A DNA stretch of 64,000 nt from Liolophura sinensis. Taxonomy: Eukaryota; Mollusca; Polyplacophora; Chitonida; Chitonidae. Where the stretch lies: the NCBI RefSeq assembly GCF_032854445.1, contig NC_088304.1, positions 29,397,732 to 29,461,731 of the forward strand, in the 5' to 3' direction. Every line of letters begins with the position of its first letter. Position 1 is the stretch's first letter. The translations under genes were made by a program, and so were the position numbers. The notes below the pieces were generated by a model, which was given only the letters and a program-made list of their open reading frames with translations, had not been told where the DNA came from and ran no database searches. Shown here one piece after another: positions 3,626-64,000 of this stretch.

Positions 3626-5051
3626 ATGTGTACAAATGTAAGGGTACCACTATCGGAAGGTCAAGATGAGAAACAACTGGCTTGTTTAACCCTCAGATCA
3701 GCGATAGGCCTTACTCCAGAACAAACAAAGAAACACGAAGACGATTGACTTAGTTCAATACATATATCTGAGCTAAGTAGACAAATAATACAACTGATGA
3801 TAATATACAACACAACACAAATAATTACATCTATATAGTATCTTACAGTGTCCTAATCCGGATGGAATGTTCCGGCTTCGAAAGGCTCATCAGTCCACGC
3901 ATAGAATCCACAGTTAAGATGAATTGGATCTCCAGATGACAGTCTGATAAGTGCTTTATTAATAATAATAACTCGGCCATATATAGTGCTAAGTGGGTTT
4001 TTAACTGTCGCTATTCCTATTATACAGGTGTAGTATTATACGACCATGTATTTTGTCCTCCACAAACCCTGGATAATATTGTAAACATTCGCTCACCCCG
4101 TCTGAACACAATTTATGATCGCTCAAGTTTCAGAACCGTCCAAGTATCCCAGAGGACCCGTTCAAATTGTAATCGCTTGACATGCTGTCGGCTAGGAATA
4201 TATAAATTCCGCACTCTTCCTGGCTTTTAAAGGCAACATAGGCATTTTTGTTGTAGACGCACGAGCACTGTCATCAAGGTTGGTGCTGAACTTCCATGGG
4301 ATGGATAGGCGCCATTTTGAGGCCGTTTCCGGCGAATTACGCCTCCTGGTGGAGAAGGTGAGCTCTTCTACATTGCCGCCTGAGGCCGAAAATTCCAACC
4401 AATACACAATATGAATTAAATCGTAAATCTGTATATTCTAAACTGTTCGAGAAAAATAGCCCAAACTGCAGAATTGTACAAACTCCTTTGAATTACCATT
4501 TCGGTAGTGTTTATACATACGTAGCTTGTCATGACTTTACAAGTGCAATTTGACTAATTAATATTTTTTGCCACTTGTTTCCACATTTTGCAACTGTAGT
4601 GATCTCCAATGCAATTGTCGAAGTTGCAATGTATTTATTTGAGCAAAACTGTCAAGTTCTTCTAATGATGAATATATCTGGTAACCGGTCAATATGTAGA
4701 GTGCTTCCAGTGAGAGACATATCATCCATACATGACATGGTTATTTAAAAAATACCGTAACTTTATGTGGGACATACAGCCGGATTCGCTAATGAAAATC
4801 TTTTCTTCGATGAAACCTGCACCTGTAGTTAGAAACCGTTCTCATATGTCAATTTTCCCGTTCAATCAATAGGAGGAAATGTAAAACCGATTTCGCTCAA
4901 CATTTATCGTTGTATATATTCTGTTTTTATACTTTGTTCTTTAACGGTGTATTGTCAAGATGTTTTGACATTTACAATGTAAGTTAGTTTTATGGTTGGA
5001 AGAGAGTCCGCAGTAAACCGTCGATCTTTGGCAAGTTACTGATGATCTTTC

Positions 5052-53300: not shown

Positions 53301-56300
53301 GAGTACAGGTAAGAGTCTAATGTTTACTGAAAGGCAATAATCTTTAGCTATTCTTGGTAAATACACAAAGTTAGATTTGATTAGTGAATATGGAAGCTTT
53401 TGCTAAAGATTTCAGGTATCGCCTCTTTGAAGAACTTTCCTGGCCAAATCAAGAATGAATTTTTATGTGTAAAATATAAACAATTTCTTCTAAATATGAG
53501 TTGTAAATTAAGCAATATTGAAGTAGAAATGGGTAGCCTAGCTTCTAACTGAAAATAAAGCTTTCACCATTTATATTGCTGGAGACACAAGTTAGGCGAT
53601 TTCTGGTGAAATAAATGGTGACTAATTTGGGATAAGATGCACATTTTTTAAAATCATTTTCATCCAAAGCACTCAGCCGATGTCATTTGGCCTGTAGAAA
53701 ACCTCCTCCCCGGTACGGCTGCCTGTGTATTGATCTTCAACTCCATACTCTTATTTCAGTTTCCCAAACTTTATTTTCAGATATTTGACTTGGACAGAGA
53801 TGAACATGAAGTGTTCATCAGGGAAGAGCTCATACAAAAGGTAAATGCATCGAATTAAATCATGTTCATCAAATTAATACTTAGTGGATCATTGCCATTG
53901 ATTGACTGACATATTTTATCTACTATAGACTGTATTTGAAACTGTATTTATTATTTGTATAAAGGTTAAATGTCAGGATTTACTTCACTGATAAAAGTGA
54001 TATTTCACTCAGTTATAGAAATCACTTTTGTTGTTACAGTTTGATATTTCACACCCAGATGTCAGGATGTCAAAAAGAACCATTTTGTTTTATGACGCTC
54101 CAATCTGAGTGGGATGGTGTCATAATACAAGTGTAGTAAAGTTTAAGATTCTTACGGCACGCATCCAGACATGGCGTCAGTCATACATGTACCCGATGAA
54201 ACTGTATATTATGGAACGACCGTGTCGTGATTTGAACCAGTGAGGTGTGGGATTGTAATCTGCGCTACTAACCACTGCACTACTATTTGTAATTTTAATA
54301 CAAATTGTAAATGAATTTACATGTATGGTATAATTTAAATGTTTTTTATACCAGCCCCAGGATCTCCGCCTACATTTCACAGTATCAGAGGCCTCCGGTT
54401 TGAGACCTGCAGATAGCTCAAGTAAGGATGCAAATTCACATAATTATGTGTATTTAAGTTTATCAATATTCAGTCAAGCTGTTGATATTGATACATGTAC
54501 CAATACACACATCATCCAATACACACACACATCATCCAATACACACACACATCATCCAATACACACACATCATCCAATACACACATCATCCAGTACACAC
54601 ATCAGCCAATACACACATCATACAGTATACACATCATCCAATACACACACCATCCAATACACACATCATCCAGTACACACATCAGCCAATACACACATCA
54701 TCCAATACACACATCATCCATTACACACGTCATCCAGTACACACGTCATCCAATACACACATCATCCAATACACACGTCATCCAATACACACATCATCCA
54801 GTACACACACATCATCCAGTACACACACAGCATCCAATACACACAGCATCCAATACACACATCATCCAATACACACATCATCCAGTACACACGTCATCCA
54901 ATACACACATCATCCAGTACACACGTCCTCCAATACACACATCATCCAGTACACACGTCATCCAATACACACATCATCCAGTACATACATCATCCAGTAC
55001 ACACACACATCATCCAGTACACACACAGCATCCAGTACACACATCAGCCAATACACACATCATCCAGTACACACGTCATCCAATACACACATCATCCAGT
55101 ATACATGTCATCCAATACACACACCATCCAATACACACATCAGCCAATGCACACATCATCCAGTACACACGTCATTCAATACACACATCATCCAGTACAC
55201 ACATCATCCAGTACACACGTCATCCAATACACACATCATCCAGTATACACATCATCCAGTACACACATCATCCAGTACACACGTCATTCAATACACATCA
55301 TCCAGTACACACATCATCCAGTACACTCGTCATCCAATACACACATCATCCAGTATACACATCATCCAGTACACACATCATCCAGTACACACGTCATCCA
55401 ATACACACATCATCCAGTATACACATCATCCAGTACACACATCATCCAGTACACACGTCATCCAATACACACATCATCCAGTATACACATCATCCAGTAC
55501 ACACATCAGCCAATACACACATCATCCAGTATACACGTCATCCAATACACACATCATCCAGTACACACATCATCCAGTACACACGTCATCCAGTACACAC
55601 ACCATCCAGTACACACATCATCCAATACACACATCATCCAGTACACACGTCATCCAATACACACACCATCCAATGCACACATCATCCAGTACACACGTCA
55701 TCCAATACACACATCATCCAGTACACACATCATCCAGTACACACGTCATCCAATACACACATCATCCAGTACACACGTCATCCAATACACACATCATCCA
55801 GTACACAAATCAGCCAATACACACATCATCCAGTACACACGTCATCCAATACACACATCATCCAGTACACACATCAGCCAATACACACATCATCCAGTAT
55901 ACACGTCATCCAATACACACATCATCCAGTACACCCGTCATCCAATACACACATCATCCAGTACACACATCAGCCAATACACACATCATCCAGTATACAC
56001 GTCATCCAATACACACACCATCCAATACACACATCAGCCAATACACACATCATCCAGTACACACATCATCCAATACACACATTATCCAATACACACATCA
56101 TCCAGTACACATGTCATCCAATACACACATCATCCAATACACACGTCATCCAATACACACATCATCCAGTATACACATCATCCAGTACACACATCAGCCA
56201 ATACACATCATCCAGTATACATGTCATCCAATACACACACCATCCAATACACACATCATCCAATACACACATCATCCAGTACACACGTCATCCAATACAC

Positions 56301-59300
56301 ACATCATCCAGTACACACATCATCCAGTACACACGTCATCCAATACACACATCATCCACTTGATGTTTCATGTAATATACAATTACATATACATCTACAT
56401 GTAAGTGCACAGCTAAAAAACGAAAGCTTGTGCTACATTTTGATGATCAGTATTTCAGAACTGCTGATGGTGGCGAAACTAAATAGCTAAAATTTGAGCC
56501 TTTTGGTAAATATAACCAACCCATACCTTTACTATTTCTCTTTAATCTGACACACTGTACATGCTTCATTGTTTTCAGGCGTGTGCGAACCATACTGCAT
56601 CCTCAGTCTTGTATCCACATCGAAACACGTTTCGCGCTCCCCGAAATCCTCACCCAAAGTATCACCCAAAGGTTCTCCCAAACCCAAGCGGAAGTCCAGT
56701 AACACATCCAATGTGTCCACAGATAGTAGCGAGGTCAGGTACACCCAGTCTGCGAAGGGAGGTAACAACCCACGCTGGAACGAACAGTTTGAATTGTGAG
56801 TACATGTTTCTTTCATGTTAGTAACATACATTTATCAACCTCAACTCTTCAGAAAATATACATGCATATCATCAAACATAGCTTAAAACCATTATTCCTT
56901 TAGCAATCATGCTGCACAAAGTGAAGTCATTTTAGCATTTTATCACTATCATTGTAACCTGTTGAGATTGACAGAAATGTAAAATCTTGAGTTCCTGAGA
57001 AAACAACTTGTCAAAATACTAGCACATTTTACATGGGTACACGAAAACAGCTAGTAATTAAAGTTAGCCATTGTGTGTCAAGATCCTCTGCTGTCTACTC
57101 TATGTTCCAGAGGCAGTGTTGAATAGTTCTCATCAACATTGTTTTGTCTTGTTGTCTTTTTTGTTCAGTGACTTATACGACCACACAGGAGATGAGCTAC
57201 ACGTGTATGTGTGGGACAACACCAAAGACTCTCCGCTCTACGGGACTAACCACTGTGTCCCCTCCACCTCCGAAAAACCACTCGGATTTAAAACGTAACC
57301 ATCCAGTTATTCTTCTGCATGCTTGTTGACGGACAGATTAATTGGCCAATTCTTGGATAATGGGATAACACTTTGGAATTTTATTTCATACCATATTCTC
57401 AAAAGGAATTTAAATGATGTGTCAAAGTCGGTAATAAAGCAAAAGGCCAGGCAAAACTGTCCTAAAATTATATTTCTGTATTTTTTAAACTTTTATTCAG
57501 GACCATGAAAGGCATTACAAAAAATAGTGACCTTTTGATGAGAATTTCACATACAAGGACATTTTGAAAATAATTCCTAGTGCAGAAAAAGAAATTCTGA
57601 TGGCTTTCATTTCAGCATTTATTTGGCTTTATGTACACTTAAATATTTGTTTTTACAGGTCCTGTTTCTTGGTATAATTTATTAATTTACTAATGGCCAT
57701 TTGCACACACACATATGGACAATGCTACATGTACAGCTGTACAATATATTGAGAACTTTACAGCTCAAACTTAAATGTATGTACCTCTTTTTGTTAGCCC
57801 CTGGCATATATACCTATGAGAAAACAGTAGATGGTTTAGTGTTGCTTTTTTTGTCGCCGTTGTTGTTGTTTAATGAGGAATCCTAGCAGGAAGAGCTGGA
57901 TTCAAGCCTGCTGTGCCACACTGATCGAAGACCTGTTTGCCAAGGTGTTGTGATGTTTTAATTAGATCAAACAGTGTTATGTTATCGATGCAGAAAAGCT
58001 AGATTATACAGGTGTGTTTTGCCTGTTTGGGTTGCAGGATATTCCGCTACATCCGTCACAGTGTGGAGCATGGTAAGACGGGACAAGATTACCTTGGCAT
58101 GTGTGTCATACCTCTCAAGGTAAGCCGGGATTTACAATGTTACATGTATCTGCTTATAACCTAATTTGGTAGTTGTTGTTGACTTTTTCAGAATTTGAAA
58201 GCTCAAATTAGCCAGTTGTTCCAGGTGGTGTTTAGAAAACCACTGGTTATCAACTTTTATCAAAATTCAACTGTTTATCAAAATAATAAAGCTAGTTACT
58301 ACCCAGCCTGAGCAGTAGCAAGGATATTCTAATTGCTGTTGATAAATACAGTAGAGGTATGTATGATATGTGATTCATGGGACATTCTGTGATTCTGTTT
58401 GTGGGACATTCTGTTTATACATGTAGGACGTTCTGAGATTCTGTTTGTAAGACATTTCATAATTCTGTTTGTAGGATATTCAGTGATCCTGTTTGTAGGA
58501 CATTCAGTGATTCTGTTTGTAGGATGTTCCATATTTCTGTTTGTAGGATATTCAGTGATTCTGTTGGTAGGACATTTAGTGATTCTGTTTGCAGGATATT
58601 TAGTGATTCTGTTTCTAGGACATTCCATGATTCTGTTGGTTGGACATTCAGCGATTCTGTTTGTAGTATATTCCATATTTCTGTTTGAAGCACATTCCAT
58701 AATTCTGTTGGTTGGACATTCAGCGATTCTGTTTGTAGTATATTCCATATTTCTGTTTGAAGGACATTCCATGATTCTGTTGGTTGGACATTCAGCGATT
58801 CTGTTTGTAGTATATTCCATATTTCTGTTTGAAGGACATTCCATGATTCTGTTGGTTGGACATTCAGCGATTCTGTTTGTAGTATATTCCATATTTCTGT
58901 TTGAAGGACATTCCATGATTCTGTTGGTTGGACATTCAGCGATTCTGTTTGTAGTATATTCCATATTTCTGTTTGAAGGACATTCCATGATTCTGTTGGT
59001 TGGACATTCAGCGATTCTGTTTGTAGTATATTCCATATTTCTGTTTGAAGGACATTCCATGATTCTGTTGGTTGGACATTCAGCGATTCTGTTTGTAGTA
59101 TATTCCATATTTCTGTTTGAAGGACATTCCATGATTCTGTTGGTTGGACATTCAGCGATTCTGTTTGTAGTATATTCCATATTTCTGTTTGAAGGACATT
59201 CCATGATTCTGTTGGTTGGACATTCAGCGATTCTGTTTGTAGTATATTCCATATTTCTGTTTGTAGGACATTCCATGATTCTGTTTGAAGGATATTCCGT

Positions 59301-62300
59301 GATTCTGTTTGTAGTATATTCCATATTTCTGTTTGAAGGACATTCCATGATTCTGTTTGAAGGATATTCCGTGATTCTGTTTGTAGGACATTCCATGATT
59401 CTGTTTGAAGGACATTCCATGATTCTGTTGGTTGGACATTCAGCAATTCTGTTTGTAGTATATTCCATATTTCTGTTTGTAGGACATTCCATGATTCTGT
59501 TGGTTGGACATTCAGCGATTCTGTTTGTAGTATATTCCATAATTCTGTTTGAAGGACTTTCCATGATTCTGTTTGTAGGATATTCCGTGCAATGGTGCAG
59601 AACAGTGGTTTGACTTAACAGACAAGTGTAAAGTGACCGGCAGACTCAAACCAGCTGGTCAGATTAAAATAAAACTATCCATTTCCCCGAGGGAGGTTCA
59701 GGTAGGTCAGGTGCCCTGGTAATTGTGGTGTCTGGGGATGAAGTGTTGGGGGATAAAGTGGAATCTGTGGGTGCTGATGGTGGAGTACTCAGTCAGTGTA
59801 AGAATTCCAGAGTAAAAGTGGATTTATAGAGTGACCCTTAGGTCTTCTGAAATAACTATGGTTAAATTATTTCTTTTCTTTTTTTTTTAAATAATGGTCT
59901 TTTAAATTAATTGTTAATATGATTTTGGAATGTTTACACCTGGTTTATTTCTCTGGAACTGGAGTAACCTTTAAATATCTATCTGTGTCCCTCTGCAGAT
60001 TGATCATGTAGACAGCGTGGACAGTTCTGCCCCATCAGGCAGTGGTTACTCTGCCACGGACAGTTACTTCCACGCCCTCCAGCACATGTTACGCCATTCC
60101 GTCAAGGTGCAACGCATAATGCACCAGTCCGCAGCTGTCAGCACGGAGCAGATTGACGGGTCGCTCAGCACGCAGAAGCGCAGAATCATGGATCTGTTTG
60201 CAGTGTCCTCCAACATCAGCAAACTCTCACAGGCAATGCTGTAAGTACATGAACATGCAAATATGTAGGTCCATAGAGAGATTTTGCTCATTTTGGACCG
60301 ATTTACCAGTGTATTGTGATGTTTTAACTAGATCCTACAGTGTTATGTTATCAATGCAGAAAAGCCAGAGCATTTCAAGTGTGTTCTGCCTGTTTGGGTT
60401 GCACGATATTCCTCTACAAACATCACAATCTGGAGCATGGTGTCATTATGCTCATGTGTCATTAAAGGTGCTTGCTTTTCTATTGATGGGACACAGCGGG
60501 AGCAGGTTCAAACCTGACCTTGGGTGGGAATTTGTAGATTAACCTTCTCTTACTGTTTCTGTGGCGTGGGTGACAATAAGCAGTGGAGGATGCTCTGGTA
60601 TCCATGTGCACGGTCTAACATGTGTTAGAGATCGCTTGTCTTCCAGCAATATCGTGGTAAAGTACGTCAGTTGGTTCCACTCACAGAAGACACAAATGAA
60701 ACTGACTGCCAGGATATGATTAAATTCTTGAGTAAATAAATAAACCAGCTGTCTCCACATTTAACCCATAAACATGTATGTTTCAGGGTTTTTGATATGT
60801 TTTCACTGCATTGAATATTGAAATGAAAGATGTTCATTTCATCTCCCCAACGTGATGAGTTAAAGACCCACATGATTCATGTAATGACGTCCATGATTTT
60901 GGATATGCCCAAATTAAGACCAAAAATTACCCAAAACATCCAAAGCTTAATGTGTCCAAATTGAGGTAATCCAGTACTCTGCATATTTCACTCTTAATTA
61001 TGTCACCTGTCTAAAGTGGCCCCGCAGAACATTTACCTGTGTTGTATTTGTATTTTGCGTAGTCACCTTGTGGTCATCCTGCAGTGGTCTGTGGGACACG
61101 AGAGTTGTCACCTGTCTAAAGTGGCCCCACAGAACATTTACCTGTGTTGTATTTGTATTTTGTGTAGTCACCTTGTGGTCATCCTGCAGTGGTCTGTGGG
61201 ACACGAGAGTTGTCACCTGTCTAAAGTGGCCCCACAGAACATTCACCTGTGTTGTATTTGTATTTTGTGTAGTTACCTTGTGGTCATCCTGCAGTGGTCT
61301 GTGGGACACGAGAGTTGTCACCTGTCTAAAGTGGCCCCACAGAACATTTACCTGTGTTGTATTTGTATTTTGCGTAGTCACCTTGTGGTCATCCTGCAGT
61401 GGTCTGTGGGACACGAGAGTTGTCACCTGTCTAAAGTGGCCCCACAGAACATTTACCTATGTTGTATTTGTATTTTGTGTAGTCACCTTGTGGTCATCCT
61501 GCAGTGGTCTGTGGGACACGAGAGTTGTCACCTGTCTAAAGTGGCCCCGCGGAACATTTACCTGTGTTGTATTTGTATTTTGCGTAGTCACCTTGTGTTC
61601 ATCCTGCAGTGGTCTGTGGGACACGAGAGTTGTCACCTGTCTAAAGTGGCCCCACAGAACATTTACTTGTGTTGTATTTGTATTTTGCGTAGTCACCTTG
61701 TGGTCATCCTGCAGTGGTCTGTGGGACACGAGAGTTGTCACCTGTCTAAAGTGGCCCCGCAGAACATTTACCTGTGTTGTATTTGTATTTTGCGTAGTCA
61801 CCTTGTGGTCATCCTGCAGTGGTCTGTGGGACACGAGAGTTGTCACCTGTCTAAAGTGGCCCCACAGAACATTTACCTATGTTGTATTTGTATTTTGTGT
61901 AGTCACCTTGTGGTCATCCTGCAGTGGTCTGTGGGACACGAGAGTTGTCACCTGTCTAAAGTGGCCCCGCAGAACATTTACCTATGTTGTATTTGTATTT
62001 TGTGTAGTCACCTTGTGGTCATCCTGCAGTGGTCTGTGGGACACGAGAGTTGTCACCTGTCCAAAGTGGCTCTGCAGAAGTCGTTAGAAGCTGTACAGAT
62101 GGCTTGGATCACCATGCAGGTTGGACTCACAGAGGTGTCGGCCAAGATGCCGCTCACTGACAATGAGGTGAGACTAGATTTTCATTACAGTTCAGTCAAT
62201 GTTAGATAAACATGTGTGTTTTTGATCCTCTCTTTCTTACATGTATTTGATATTTTATAAAGATTTGTCTGGGCTTAAAAGCATAGTTTTACCCGCAAAA

Positions 62301-63379
62301 ATTTCTGCTTGGAGGGAGTTATCACAATGTAAGTACATGGTTTAAGGTTTTCACTTCACAATCCTATTAAGGAAATATAAACCCATCTAACCCAAACTAG
62401 CTCTTTAGTGCACAACTTTGATCTCAAATATCTTGTTTGTTTGCAAAATATTTGCTGTGTAATAACAGAATAGGCTTTAATGTCTATACTGTGACTACAG
62501 CCATAATGACTTCTGCTGCATGACTTTTCATAATAAAAGTACACACATACATGTATATTGTACTTAAATTTTCTATGTTTCACATTACAGATTGCCATGT
62601 TCAGAATGACTGCTGGCAAATATTTCAATGCCACAATGAGCAACCTTGAGATTCCGGATCTTTTCCCACCAAATGTGGAGTCTGTGAATGTACTCAAAAA
62701 CAAAATTGGGTAGGTTAATAATATGCTATGTAGCGATTAGTGAAACCGATTAGTGAAATTGATTAGTGGAACTGATTTGTGAAACTGATAAGAGGAATTG
62801 ATTAGTGAAACTGAATAGTGAAATTGATTTGTGAAACCGATTAGTGGAATTGATCAGTAGAGCTGATTTGTGAAACTGATTAGTGGAGTTGATCATTGGA
62901 ATTGATATATGAAACTGATTAGTGGAATTGATTAGTGGAATTGATTTGTTAGACTGATTAGTAGAATTGATCAGTGGAACTGATTCATGAAACTGCTTAG
63001 TGGAATTCATCATTTGAGTTGATTAGTGAAATTGATTAGTGGAACTGACTCGTGAAACTGATTAGTGGAATTGATCAGTGGAATTGATCAGTGAAACTGA
63101 TGAGTGAAACTGATTAGTGAAATTGCTTAACTGAAGGCTGTATGTGTACATCTCTGAGCCTGAAATTTGTGTGAGAAACCATGTCTTATGGTTGCCACTC
63201 TTGAATATGTACACTTGTAAATTAACTGTGATTGGAATGTCTAGCAACAGACTTTGAATTATTGTATTTTGTGATTGGTCTCTTTCAGTGTTTTAATCCA
63301 GCTTTCTGATTTTGACCTGTGGGATAAAAAATCATTCCCACTGAAGGAGCTGACAGCTGTCGTTGTAGGTAAAATACAG
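39183..63379 (+). CDS. BAIAP3/UNC13D-like: UNC13-family protein, BAIAP3/Munc13-4 type (12 exons seen, 3' end outside window)
   Basis: Twelve exons join in frame (576 codons): 39183-39515, 50576-50683, 53781-53840, 54355-54421, 56579-56795, 57169-57294, 58038-58119, 59579-59701, 59999-60240, 62008-62167, 62591-62709 and 63289-63379. Family members are Ca2+-dependent priming factors that tether and prime secretory granules or dense-core vesicles through a MUN domain flanked by C2 domains. Visible: a Ser/Arg-rich N-terminus (1-111), the conserved segment HLYRGLLRSVIHPLG (~113), a C2A domain (~170-366) ending QWFDL...GQIKIKLS, then helical sequence (ISKLSQAM, ILQWSVGHESC) that in this family leads to MUN. 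The MUN core and second C2 domain must lie beyond 64000. Assignment within the family rests on remembered similarity; the paralogue is not settled. Confidence 0.82.
40596..40690. repeat. ~27-bp tandem repeat, 3 copies
   Basis: GTACGTGTGAACACT...CTTTATTAG repeated. Confidence 0.8.
40725..41110. repeat. ~74-bp tandem repeat, ~5 copies
   Basis: The unit contains CTTCACAATCTACATGTGAT, GACCTTCTCATATGAAGG and ATTATATGATGATAT; starts at 40791, 40864, 40938 and 41014. Confidence 0.85.
41557..42395. repeat. 43-bp minisatellite, ~19 copies
   Basis: The unit contains CACAGGTACATGTGCACAGT and GGGATTTAGCTC. It is highly homogeneous, with a few diverged units near 42130-42220. Confidence 0.95.
43480..45055. 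repeat. 38-bp minisatellite, ~41 copies, two unit types
   Basis: (GT)n plus GACACTGAGAA followed by either TTGTAGTCATTGTGCCT or CTGTATTCAGTGTCCGT. GT-tract length varies by one or two dinucleotides, shifting frame along the array. Confidence 0.95.
46383..47240. repeat. 88-bp minisatellite, ~10 copies
   Basis: The unit contains TTTTAACCTTCAAACTTACA and TGTTCCATGGCTGTGAGTAA. Period measured between 46383, 46471 and 46559. Confidence 0.95.
47764..47885. repeat. ~34-bp tandem repeat, 4 copies
   Basis: TCCAAACAAACTTTGAAGTT followed by an AT-rich ATATACATCG spacer. Confidence 0.8.
48347..48440 (-). mobile_element. Degraded SINE tail fragment
   Basis: (ATTT)n followed by TTTGCCATACCCAAGAATAT, the complement of the SINE end. 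Confidence 0.5.
49043..49135 (+). mobile_element. SINE 3' fragment
   Basis: TTCCCACCATAATGCTGGC, AAGTGAAATATTCTTGTGTA and an AATCAAATAAATT tail. Confidence 0.7.
49567..49625. repeat. (TA)n microsatellite
   Basis: ~58 bp of TA dinucleotides preceded by a short GT run. Confidence 0.97.
50320..50397. repeat. (ATC)n followed by (AGC)n microsatellites
   Basis: About 18 ATC units to 50373, then CAACAGCAGCAGCAGCAGC. A poly-Met frame on the complement is an artefact. Confidence 0.97.
50576..50683 (+). CDS. UNC13-family exon 2
   Basis: 36 codons, acceptor CTGCTTCAG, donor GTATAA, phase 0/0. Encodes HLYRGLLRSVIHPLG, the conserved helix preceding C2A in BAIAP3/Munc13-4. Confidence 0.85.
50839..53096. 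repeat. 40-bp minisatellite, ~56 copies, intron 2
   Basis: The unit is GTACATGTAGGCCTATACAA plus TACATGGTGTATTATACTGT. Nearly all variation is A/G at unit positions 3 and 15. Units 52361-52680 and 52681-53000 are the same 8-unit block in tandem. Confidence 0.97.
53097..53780. other. Rest of intron 2
   Basis: Nothing recognised beyond AT-rich sequence and the pyrimidine tract of exon 3. Confidence 0.6.
53781..53840 (+). CDS. UNC13-family exon 3
   Basis: 20 codons (IFDLDRDEHEVFIREELIQK), acceptor TTATTTTCAG, donor GTAAAT. Short helical linker into C2A. Confidence 0.82.
54225..54295 (-). repeat. tRNA-like pseudogene or SINE head, intron 3
   Basis: On the minus strand, GTAGTGCAGTGGTTAG (A-box-like) is followed ~35 bp later by GGTTCAAATC (B-box). 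No acceptor stem pairs, so not a working tRNA. Confidence 0.5.
54355..54421 (+). CDS. UNC13-family exon 4, start of C2A
   Basis: 67 bases, phase 0 in and 1 out, donor GTAAGG. Encodes LRLHFTVSEASGLRPADSS, the first C2 strands and part of Ca2+ loop 1. Confidence 0.82.
54500..56362. repeat. 16-bp minisatellite, ~116 copies, intron 4
   Basis: The unit is CATCATCCA(A/G)TACACA with variants. All three + frames are open for over 600 codons because 16 bp has no stop in any register. Starts about 80 bp after the exon 4 donor. Confidence 0.96.
56579..56795 (+). CDS. UNC13-family exon 5, C2A with basic Ser/Pro insertion
   Basis: 217 bases, acceptor TGTTTTCAG, donor GTGAGT. Encodes CEPYCILSL, a ~45-residue Ser/Pro/Lys-rich loop, then NNPRWNEQFEF typical of C2 domains. 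Confidence 0.85.
57169..57294 (+). CDS. UNC13-family exon 6, C2A
   Basis: 126 bases, acceptor TTTTTTGTTCAG, donor GTAACC. Encodes LYDHTGDELHVYVWDNTKDS, the C2 loop-3 Asp cluster. Confidence 0.83.
58038..58119 (+). CDS. UNC13-family exon 7, C2A
   Basis: 82 bases, acceptor GGGTTGCAG, donor GTAAGC. Encodes IFRYIRHSVEH...YLGMCVIPLK. A degraded duplicate of this exon is at 60405-60467. Confidence 0.83.
58376..59590. repeat. 24-bp array in 72-bp higher-order units, intron 7, ending at exon 8 acceptor
   Basis: The basic unit is GATTCTGTTTGTAGGACATT plus CCAT. The middle is homogenised as 72-bp trimers (period measured 58645 to 58717). The final unit supplies the acceptor and first bases of exon 8. 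Confidence 0.95.
59579..59701 (+). CDS. UNC13-family exon 8, C2A end
   Basis: 41 codons, acceptor TCTGTTTGTAG, donor GTAGGT. Encodes DIPCNGAEQWFDL and the last C2 strand. Its acceptor and first bases are the last unit of a 24-bp array. Confidence 0.83.
59999..60240 (+). CDS. UNC13-family exon 9
   Basis: 242 bases, acceptor CCCTCTGCAG, donor GTAAGT, phase 0 in and 2 out. Encodes DSYFHALQHMLRHSVKVQRI and ISKLSQAM, helical. Confidence 0.83.
60290..60467 (+). pseudogene. Degraded duplicate of exon 7 with its upstream intron
   Basis: 60311-60400 resembles 57947-58037 (GTGTTATGTTATC, CTGCCTGTTTGGGTTGCA) and 60405-60467 resembles exon 7 (GATATTCC, CTGGAGCATGGT, CATGTGTCAT). The acceptor AG is now AC at 60403-60404 and ~20 bases are lost, so it cannot be spliced as exon 7 is. 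Confidence 0.75.
61006..62075. repeat. 105-bp array, 10 units, containing exon 10 acceptor and 5' coding part
   Basis: Each unit has CACCTGTCTAAAGTGGCCCC, TTGTATTTGTATTTTG(C/T)G, TAG, then TCACCTTGTGGTCATCCTGC and GTGGGACACGAGAGTTG. The period is 35 codons and the exon 10 frame is open through all units. Confidence 0.96.
62008..62167 (+). CDS. UNC13-family exon 10 (acceptor inside 105-bp array)
   Basis: 160 bases from the last-array-unit acceptor TTTTGTGTAG to the GTGAGA donor. The phase-2 carry-over from exon 9 (CT) plus T gives Leu, then HLVVILQWSVGHESCHLSKV. Nine upstream phase-compatible acceptors exist at 105-bp steps back to 61063, so the true 5' end could differ. Confidence 0.78.
62591..62709 (+). 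CDS. UNC13-family exon 11
   Basis: 119 bases, acceptor TCACATTACAG, donor GTAGGT, phase 0 in and 2 out. Encodes IAMFRMTAGKYF and FPPNVESVNVLKNK. Confidence 0.82.
62735..63125. repeat. 13-bp minisatellite, ~30 diverged copies, intron 11
   Basis: Units such as GAAACTGATTAGT and GGAATTGATCAGT. Starts ~25 bp after the exon 11 donor. Confidence 0.9.
63289..63379 (+). CDS. UNC13-family exon 12
   Basis: 91 bases from acceptor CTCTTTCAG to CAG before GTGAGG. Encodes VLIQLSDFDLWDKKSF. A second possible donor (GTAG before GTAAAA, ending at 63368) is 11 bases earlier and would change the phase. The donor region is copied into the 33-bp array that follows. Confidence 0.75.
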
Positions 63380-64000
63380 GTGAGGAACAATACACATTGA
63401 CGGTAAAATACAGGTGGGGGAACATGAGGTTATGGGTAAAATACAGGTCAGGGAACATGACATTATGGGTGAAATACAGGTCAGGGAACATGACGTTATG
63501 GATAAAATACAGGTCAGGGAACATAACATTATGAGTAAAATACAGGTGAGGGAACATGAGGTTATGGGTAAAATACAGGTGAGGAACAATACACATTGAC
63601 GGTAAAATACAGGTGAGGGAACATAACATTATGGGTAAAATACAGGTGAGGGAACATGAGGTTATGGGTAAAATACAGGTGAGGAACAATACACATTGAC
63701 GGTAAAATACAGGTGAGGGAACATGAGGTTATGGGTAAAATACAGGTGAGGGAACATGAGGTTATGGGTAAAATACAGGTGAGGGAACATGACATTATGG
63801 GTGAAATACAGGTGAGGGAACATGACGTTATGGATAAAATACAGGTGAGGGAACATAACATTATGGGTAAAATACAGGTGAGGGAACATGACATTATGGG
63901 TGAAATACAGGTGAGGGAACATGACATTATGGGTAAAATACAGGTGAGGGAACATGACATTATGGGTGAAATACAAGAGAGGGAACTTCATGCTTTACGG
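63368..64000. repeat. 33-bp array starting at the exon 12 donor, runs out of window
   Basis: The unit is GGTAAAATACAGGTGAGGGA plus ACATGACATTATG. The first unit is the last codons and donor of exon 12; ~19 units are seen. Confidence 0.95.

Follow-up and report, generated by a model that had tools for sequence, protein, structure and literature searches.

A ten-unit minisatellite carrying the splice acceptor of an UNC13D-like chiton gene, and comparable arrays at other splice sites of the genome

What happens to a gene when the start of one of its exons, splice acceptor included, is repeated ten times in tandem? The question is raised by a 105-bp array in the chiton Liolophura sinensis (renamed from Liolophura japonica in a correction; PMC12441733), within the 64,000-nt stretch of DNA that we analyzed as a whole and refer to as the window. 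The initial annotation saw in this array a possible generator of protein isoforms or of length alleles. We favor, with a probability of roughly 0.8, the reading that a tandem duplication arose by chance over the splice site and is tolerated as the copy that touches the exon dominates, a choice of acceptor that we infer from the arrangement of the sites.

The ten exons of the host gene found in the window (Table 1) form a single open frame when joined, and 11 further exons carry this frame onward in the next 10 kb, while a motif search upstream of them returned no match for the first exons of the gene. The joined protein contains a Pfam C2 match at residues 26-134 (E 4.9e-14), and UNC13D (PDB 9la9) is its top solved relative (E 3.1e-11, best of 33 sequences). 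For the 548 later residues, UNC13D is the sole sequence at E <= 0.001 (E 1.1e-17). Over 913 residues, the Pfam MUN/MHD model gave no match, and C2 (PF00168) was alone at E <= 0.01. A C2 domain followed by an UNC13D-homologous region is the arrangement that defines an UNC13D/Munc13-4-like protein, and homology thus predicts that the host gene encodes a Munc13-4-like (UNC13D-like) secretion protein of the vesicle-priming type, a vesicle-priming protein being what the initial annotation had proposed. The same annotation had located the array at the start of exon 10, with the additional residues inserted just after C2A. The array does lie at an exon start, the exon being number 8 of those found; the insertion point has to be moved, as the exon 7-8 junction falls at about residue 306, well beyond C2A, in a stretch that aligns with the helical portion of UNC13D.

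At the array itself, TRF run on the window reports a period of 105, 10.2 copies, 97% matches and a score of 2014, which places the existence of the array far beyond chance. TAG/T is present in 10/10 units, with exon starts recurring every 105 bp from 61063 to 62008 (61063 + 105n, n = 0-9), and since 62008 belongs to a chain of 10 exons with one open frame, it is the frame-consistent exon start. Two bases of an incomplete codon precede the donor at 60240, and joining exon 59999-60240 to each acceptor and reading on to 62167 gives an open frame in 10/10 cases, each extra unit contributing 35 residues, in the commonest form HLVVILQWSVGHESCHLSKVAPQNIYLCCICILRS. The units vary at nine sites, in mixed order, and have a mean pairwise identity of 97.4%. 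Much of the first description of the array is borne out by these results, namely a tandem duplication of an exon start that includes the tract, the TAG and about 70 coding bases, ten phase-matched acceptors free of stops in the exon frame, and recent homogenization of the units. Every unit also contains TTTAC (TTCAC in the third), the A of which lies 28 bases before the exon start and may be a branch point. The array is a boundary-spanning minisatellite, with short tandem units, a splice signal inside them, and homogenization from which the edge copy is excluded.

Table 1. Features of the host gene and splice-site arrays at myosin exons. Positions of host-gene features are those of the window; positions given for myosin loci are those of the locus named.
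Feature	Locus	Positions	Strand	Unit x copies	Basis or remark
UNC13D-like host gene, ten exons found in the window	window	53781..63379	+		joined frame, homology
Sister array with copies of the exon 6 (59579-59701) acceptor	window	58426..59585	+	24/72-bp units	TRF, frame
Exon 7 (of those found), phase-2 donor CT/GTAAGT at its end	window	59999..60240	+		frame
Ten units, each with a tract rich in pyrimidines, a TAG acceptor and ~70 bases from exon 8	window	61001..62070	+	105 bp x ten	TRF
Nine upstream candidate decoy acceptors (61063, 61168, 61273, 61378, 61483, 61588, 61693, 61798, 61903)	window	61063..61972	+		exon-like starts
Exon 8 proper, TAG at 62005-62007, donor at 62168	window	62008..62167	+		frame, homology
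Second, out-of-frame acceptor, CATCCTGCAGTGG junction, exon start 62030	window	62008..62030	+		acceptor scoring
Sister array with copies of the exon 10 (63289-63379) donor	window	63368..63986	+	33/34-bp units	TRF, frame
Myosin array, donor	L033			31 bp x 18	
Myosin array, donor	L040			66 bp x 6.3	
Myosin array, acceptor	L042			32 bp x 12.7	
Myosin array, acceptor	L052			95 bp x 3.1	
Myosin array, donor and most of the myosin exon's end	L062	462-995		124 bp x 4.3	units 97% alike
Myosin array, donor	L076	283-474		31 bp x 6.2	muscle-type myosin heavy chain gene

The edges of the array give some indication of how it arose. Each unit joins exon position ~ +70 to +74 to intron position ~ -31 to -35; the sequence is GTGGCTCTGCAGAAGTCG in the exon and GTGGCCCCRCAGAACATT in the units, with GCGG replacing GCAG in one unit. 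The presence of GCAGAA at the join makes a duplication at a short match plausible. The left edge of the array begins in mid-exon sequence, at about exon +44, and one clean duplication would be insufficient to produce it; the simplest additional step would be a subsequent deletion there. Only the right-edge copy differs at +55 and has GCTCTG where the units have GCCCCR, differences that are expected if edge copies escape homogenization.

Under the reading that we favor, a minisatellite duplication would by chance have covered the 3' splice site of exon 8, and unequal exchange or slippage would then have expanded it to ten units. Because the copy adjoining the real exon body is intact, the protein need not change, and the nine upstream copies, roughly equal in sequence, would act as decoy acceptors. 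Differences between the units at the acceptor are too slight for site strength to account for a preference for the last copy, and position must decide among sites that are nearly equal. Exon definition favors the copy that makes the shortest exon: an acceptor paired with the donor at 62168 gives an exon of 160 nt from the last copy and of 265 to 1105 nt from the upstream copies, and the last copy would most likely be dominant. By the same rule, the first copy would be chosen in arrays that copy a donor. In all nine arrays of Table 1, we take as authentic the copy adjoining the exon body, which is also the one that yields the shortest exon. In cis-competition, however, nearer acceptors can win, which would favor the upstream copies. 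Leaky use of these copies would presumably be low, yet some use of upstream acceptors, giving extended isoforms, is possible, and length alleles of the 105-bp array are plausible. With 62008 as the acceptor, the alignment to UNC13D runs across the exon 7-8 junction and shows a 3-residue gap but no 35-residue insert. The last acceptor therefore yields a protein that has a homologue, and steps of 35 residues would be new insertions inside the aligned region.

The same junction bears on the isoform ladder of the initial annotation, in which several of the ten acceptors are used normally, every unit adds its residues to the protein, and the number of units becomes a source of variation. We regard this as unlikely. 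That all ten joins are open is what first suggests it, but an open phase is not hard to obtain: with random 35-nt pieces of this gene's introns as the intron part, the unit was open in 5,723 of 11,636 draws (49%), and a length divisible by 3 being expected one time in three, about 16% of such arrays would have an open phase by chance. The 105-bp array is open in two of the three forward frames, and four of its nine variable sites are silent (P = 0.42 against the transition expectation), all of which indicates that the open frame is probably not special, chance giving as much. Decoys and authentic acceptor hardly differ in sequence, each decoy is preceded by a possible branch point, and nearer acceptors can be favored as a general matter; against this, an out-of-frame CAG with a better score accompanies the TAG in 10/10 units, UNC13D has no insert at the exon 7-8 junction, and the sister arrays could not be used in this way, since their extended exon frame is stopped. 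Among the nine verified boundary-spanning arrays, only the 105-bp one is both in frame and open, where 1.5 would be expected. The ladder is probably not the main product of the array.

The out-of-frame CAG could itself be put to use, and upstream acceptors, chiefly those of the CAG type, might often be spliced, leading to premature stops and to an expression that falls with unit number. The CATCCTGCAGTGG acceptor is found 22 bases past the TAG in all ten units (61085 + 105n), and the CAG sites score 6.2-7.0 bits versus 1.0-4.0 for the TAG sites, on a matrix built from only 19 acceptors of the gene. The authentic TAG scores 3.8, a value reached or exceeded by 17 of the 19 authentic acceptors. 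Use of a CAG acceptor shifts the frame, which then terminates at a stop inside the exon (62085-62087). Two considerations make such a harmful or regulatory decoy quite improbable to us: from the candidate branch point, the TAG is met before the CAG, and the site matrices, built from only 19 acceptors and 20 donors, prefer other AGs over the authentic TAG. We also considered the CAG with exon start 62030 as the true acceptor and rejected it; it scores higher, but the joined frame runs into the same stop and the aligned exon is lost. Within the inner units, the best GT (AAAGTGGCC) scores 2.8 bits on the 20-donor matrix and is a weak candidate for the donor of a cassette exon; 19/20 authentic donors score at least 2.8 and 17/20 at least 4.9. 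Finally, near-identical repeats tend to collapse or expand in assemblies, but an error in the array or in its unit number is very improbable here, given that the assembly is described as HiFi-based in the genome paper (PMC11068029), that the units differ at nine sites in mixed order, and that like arrays occur in other genes.

Chance duplication with tolerance is also favored by two sister arrays of the same gene, which the initial annotation had overlooked. The list from the exon at 53781 to just past the stop codon, with two-copy TRF rows left out, holds eight arrays, 3 of them containing a splice junction. The array at exon 6 has its 24-bp units in a 72-bp higher-order form, and the exon frame read from the seven upstream TAG/GA sites tested meets stops in 7/7 cases. 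The donor array at exon 10 contains 18 CAG/GT sites, the authentic one included, and its frame meets a stop within the first extra unit.

A separate duplication lies nearby. The stretch 57930-58074, covering the exon 5 acceptor and the beginning of that exon, recurs at 84% identity inside intron 7 (60296-60441), where AC replaces the AG. A genome search placed this stretch in at least two places, both within the host gene. Judging from its sequence, the pair seems to go back to a local duplication, long ago, of the start of an exon, and we discarded a mobile element as its source, the places reported (at least two) being all in this gene.

To what extent are splice sites elsewhere in the genome covered by such arrays? 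We searched 609,464,459 bases in 632 contigs, taking matches to myosin-head exons as a sample selected without regard to repeats. Of 81 matches found, 67 were taken with their flanks (56, plus 11 with shorter flanks) and 14 were left out; exon edges were judged by eye. TRF flagged 9/56 and 2/11 of these matches, and an array copies the splice site at 6 of the 67, that is, at 6/134 edges (95% interval 1.7 to 9.5%; the matches fall in ~19 gene clusters), a rough figure, since the ends of the matches and the exon edges do not coincide in every case. In 5 of the 6 myosin arrays, including L076, where one extra unit is enough, use of the closest decoy found would cause a frameshift, and the decoy of L040 is in frame but meets a stop. 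Efficient use of these decoys would thus damage the genes that carry them. Three further matches flagged by TRF (L032, L057 and L067) were not counted, as the splice site is not copied, a judgment made by eye for L032 and L057. Also uncounted are arrays at L046 (8-391) and L056 (70-373), which begin close to the donor of the myosin exon and whose units only partly resemble it; judging by this partial resemblance, they are possibly old, decayed boundary-spanning arrays.

When duplicated segments were placed at random over the myosin loci, 3.4 edges were expected versus the 6 observed (P(>=6) = 0.13), or 3.1 once the period of one array was corrected (P(>=6) = 0.10). Splice-site arrays at myosin edges show no sign of depletion, and an enrichment is not clear. 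The nine array periods (24/72, 105, 33/34, 31, 66, 32, 95, 124 and 31) include three or four multiples of 3, as by chance.

Competition between identical splice sites within one transcript has an experimental counterpart in the work of Reed and Maniatis, who in 1986 reportedly used duplicated splice sites in cis-competition experiments. Unlike those constructs, the chiton arrays are natural, comprise up to 18 copies, and have a real exon at their far end.

The closest known relatives of these arrays are the "mirage" minisatellites of lancelets, described for Adh3, BflGb6, BflGb9, TnC and PGBD5 (PMC3087553, PMC3902484). As presented in these papers, mirages share with the chiton arrays tandem units that span an exon-intron boundary together with its splice signal, an effect on both acceptors and donors, units of tens to ~160 bp, and concerted evolution from which the edge copy is excluded (PMC3087553, PMC3902484). 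The chiton differs in that the host is a mollusc, the mirage cases considered here being all from cephalochordates, in having ten nearly identical units and three arrays in one gene, and in that 6/134 sampled edges are affected in another gene family. Regarding splicing, the lancelet globin, with haplotypes of 6 and 3 units, is reported to be spliced regularly by RT-PCR, and somatic instability is cited for the Adh3 array (PMC3087553). The Adh and TnC arrays are said to produce no aberrant mRNAs, whereas for PGBD5 this absence was merely inferred by the authors, who set aside a predicted exon in 108-bp repeats for want of cDNA (PMC3902484). On structural grounds, the chiton arrays are mirages of the lancelet kind, and normal splicing would be expected here by analogy. 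Tandem genomic duplication has also been linked to intron gain, in a potato RdRp gene (PMC4974935) and in Drosophila (PMC2891723), cases that likewise involve tandem duplication with splice signals in genes. Those duplications create new introns, whereas the chiton arrays lengthen an intron that is already there and multiply its edge. Among the matches listed in openly licensed PMC texts, we found no boundary-spanning array from chitons or other molluscs.

The mirage structure, described so far for a few lancelet genes, is in this way extended to a mollusc, and the sampled edges suggest that boundary-spanning arrays are common in this genome. It is tempting to hypothesize, although we hold this only tentatively and would not bet on it at even odds, that chiton minisatellites engulf a few per cent of all splice sites and that position alone picks the copy touching the exon. 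If true, the genome would hold thousands of natural splice-site competitions, with up to ~18 near-identical sites and in essential genes as well, and an imperfect choice would let repeat-number alleles feed new isoforms and introns. The 105-bp array would then be the frame-preserving case, able to add 35-residue steps, and the share of splice sites taken up by arrays is to us a more interesting point than this case itself. Near-identical competing sites pose the question of how the spliceosome chooses among equals by position, and boundary-spanning arrays flag places where gene structure can change fast.

In 20 sampled 10-kb stretches of the genome, the share of tandem arrays ranges from 0 to 34%; in the window it is 22%. 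According to the genome paper, repeats account for 27.89% of the genome and unclassified ones, at 14.04%, for half of that share, with simple repeats, microsatellites and RNA reaching 0.08% together; the word "tandem" does not occur in its main text (PMC11068029). Set against these 0.08% and 14.04%, the share found in the window indicates that minisatellites may be under-reported. A SINE-like element at positions 4260-4540 of the 10-kb stretch that follows the window (L002) gave 52 BLAST hits in 284 kb of genome; two short sequence words taken from it had no match in paper texts.

Three observations concern the organism. The lancelet precedent had raised the suspicion of a lancelet source; the GFP family gave 0 matches in this genome, a result of little weight because the 14 control genomes gave none either. 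Eight hemocyanin functional units stand in a row on one contig (C8), which agrees with a mollusc and points to a chiton. A best myosin match is to PDB 3i5f, from squid, and likewise agrees with a mollusc.
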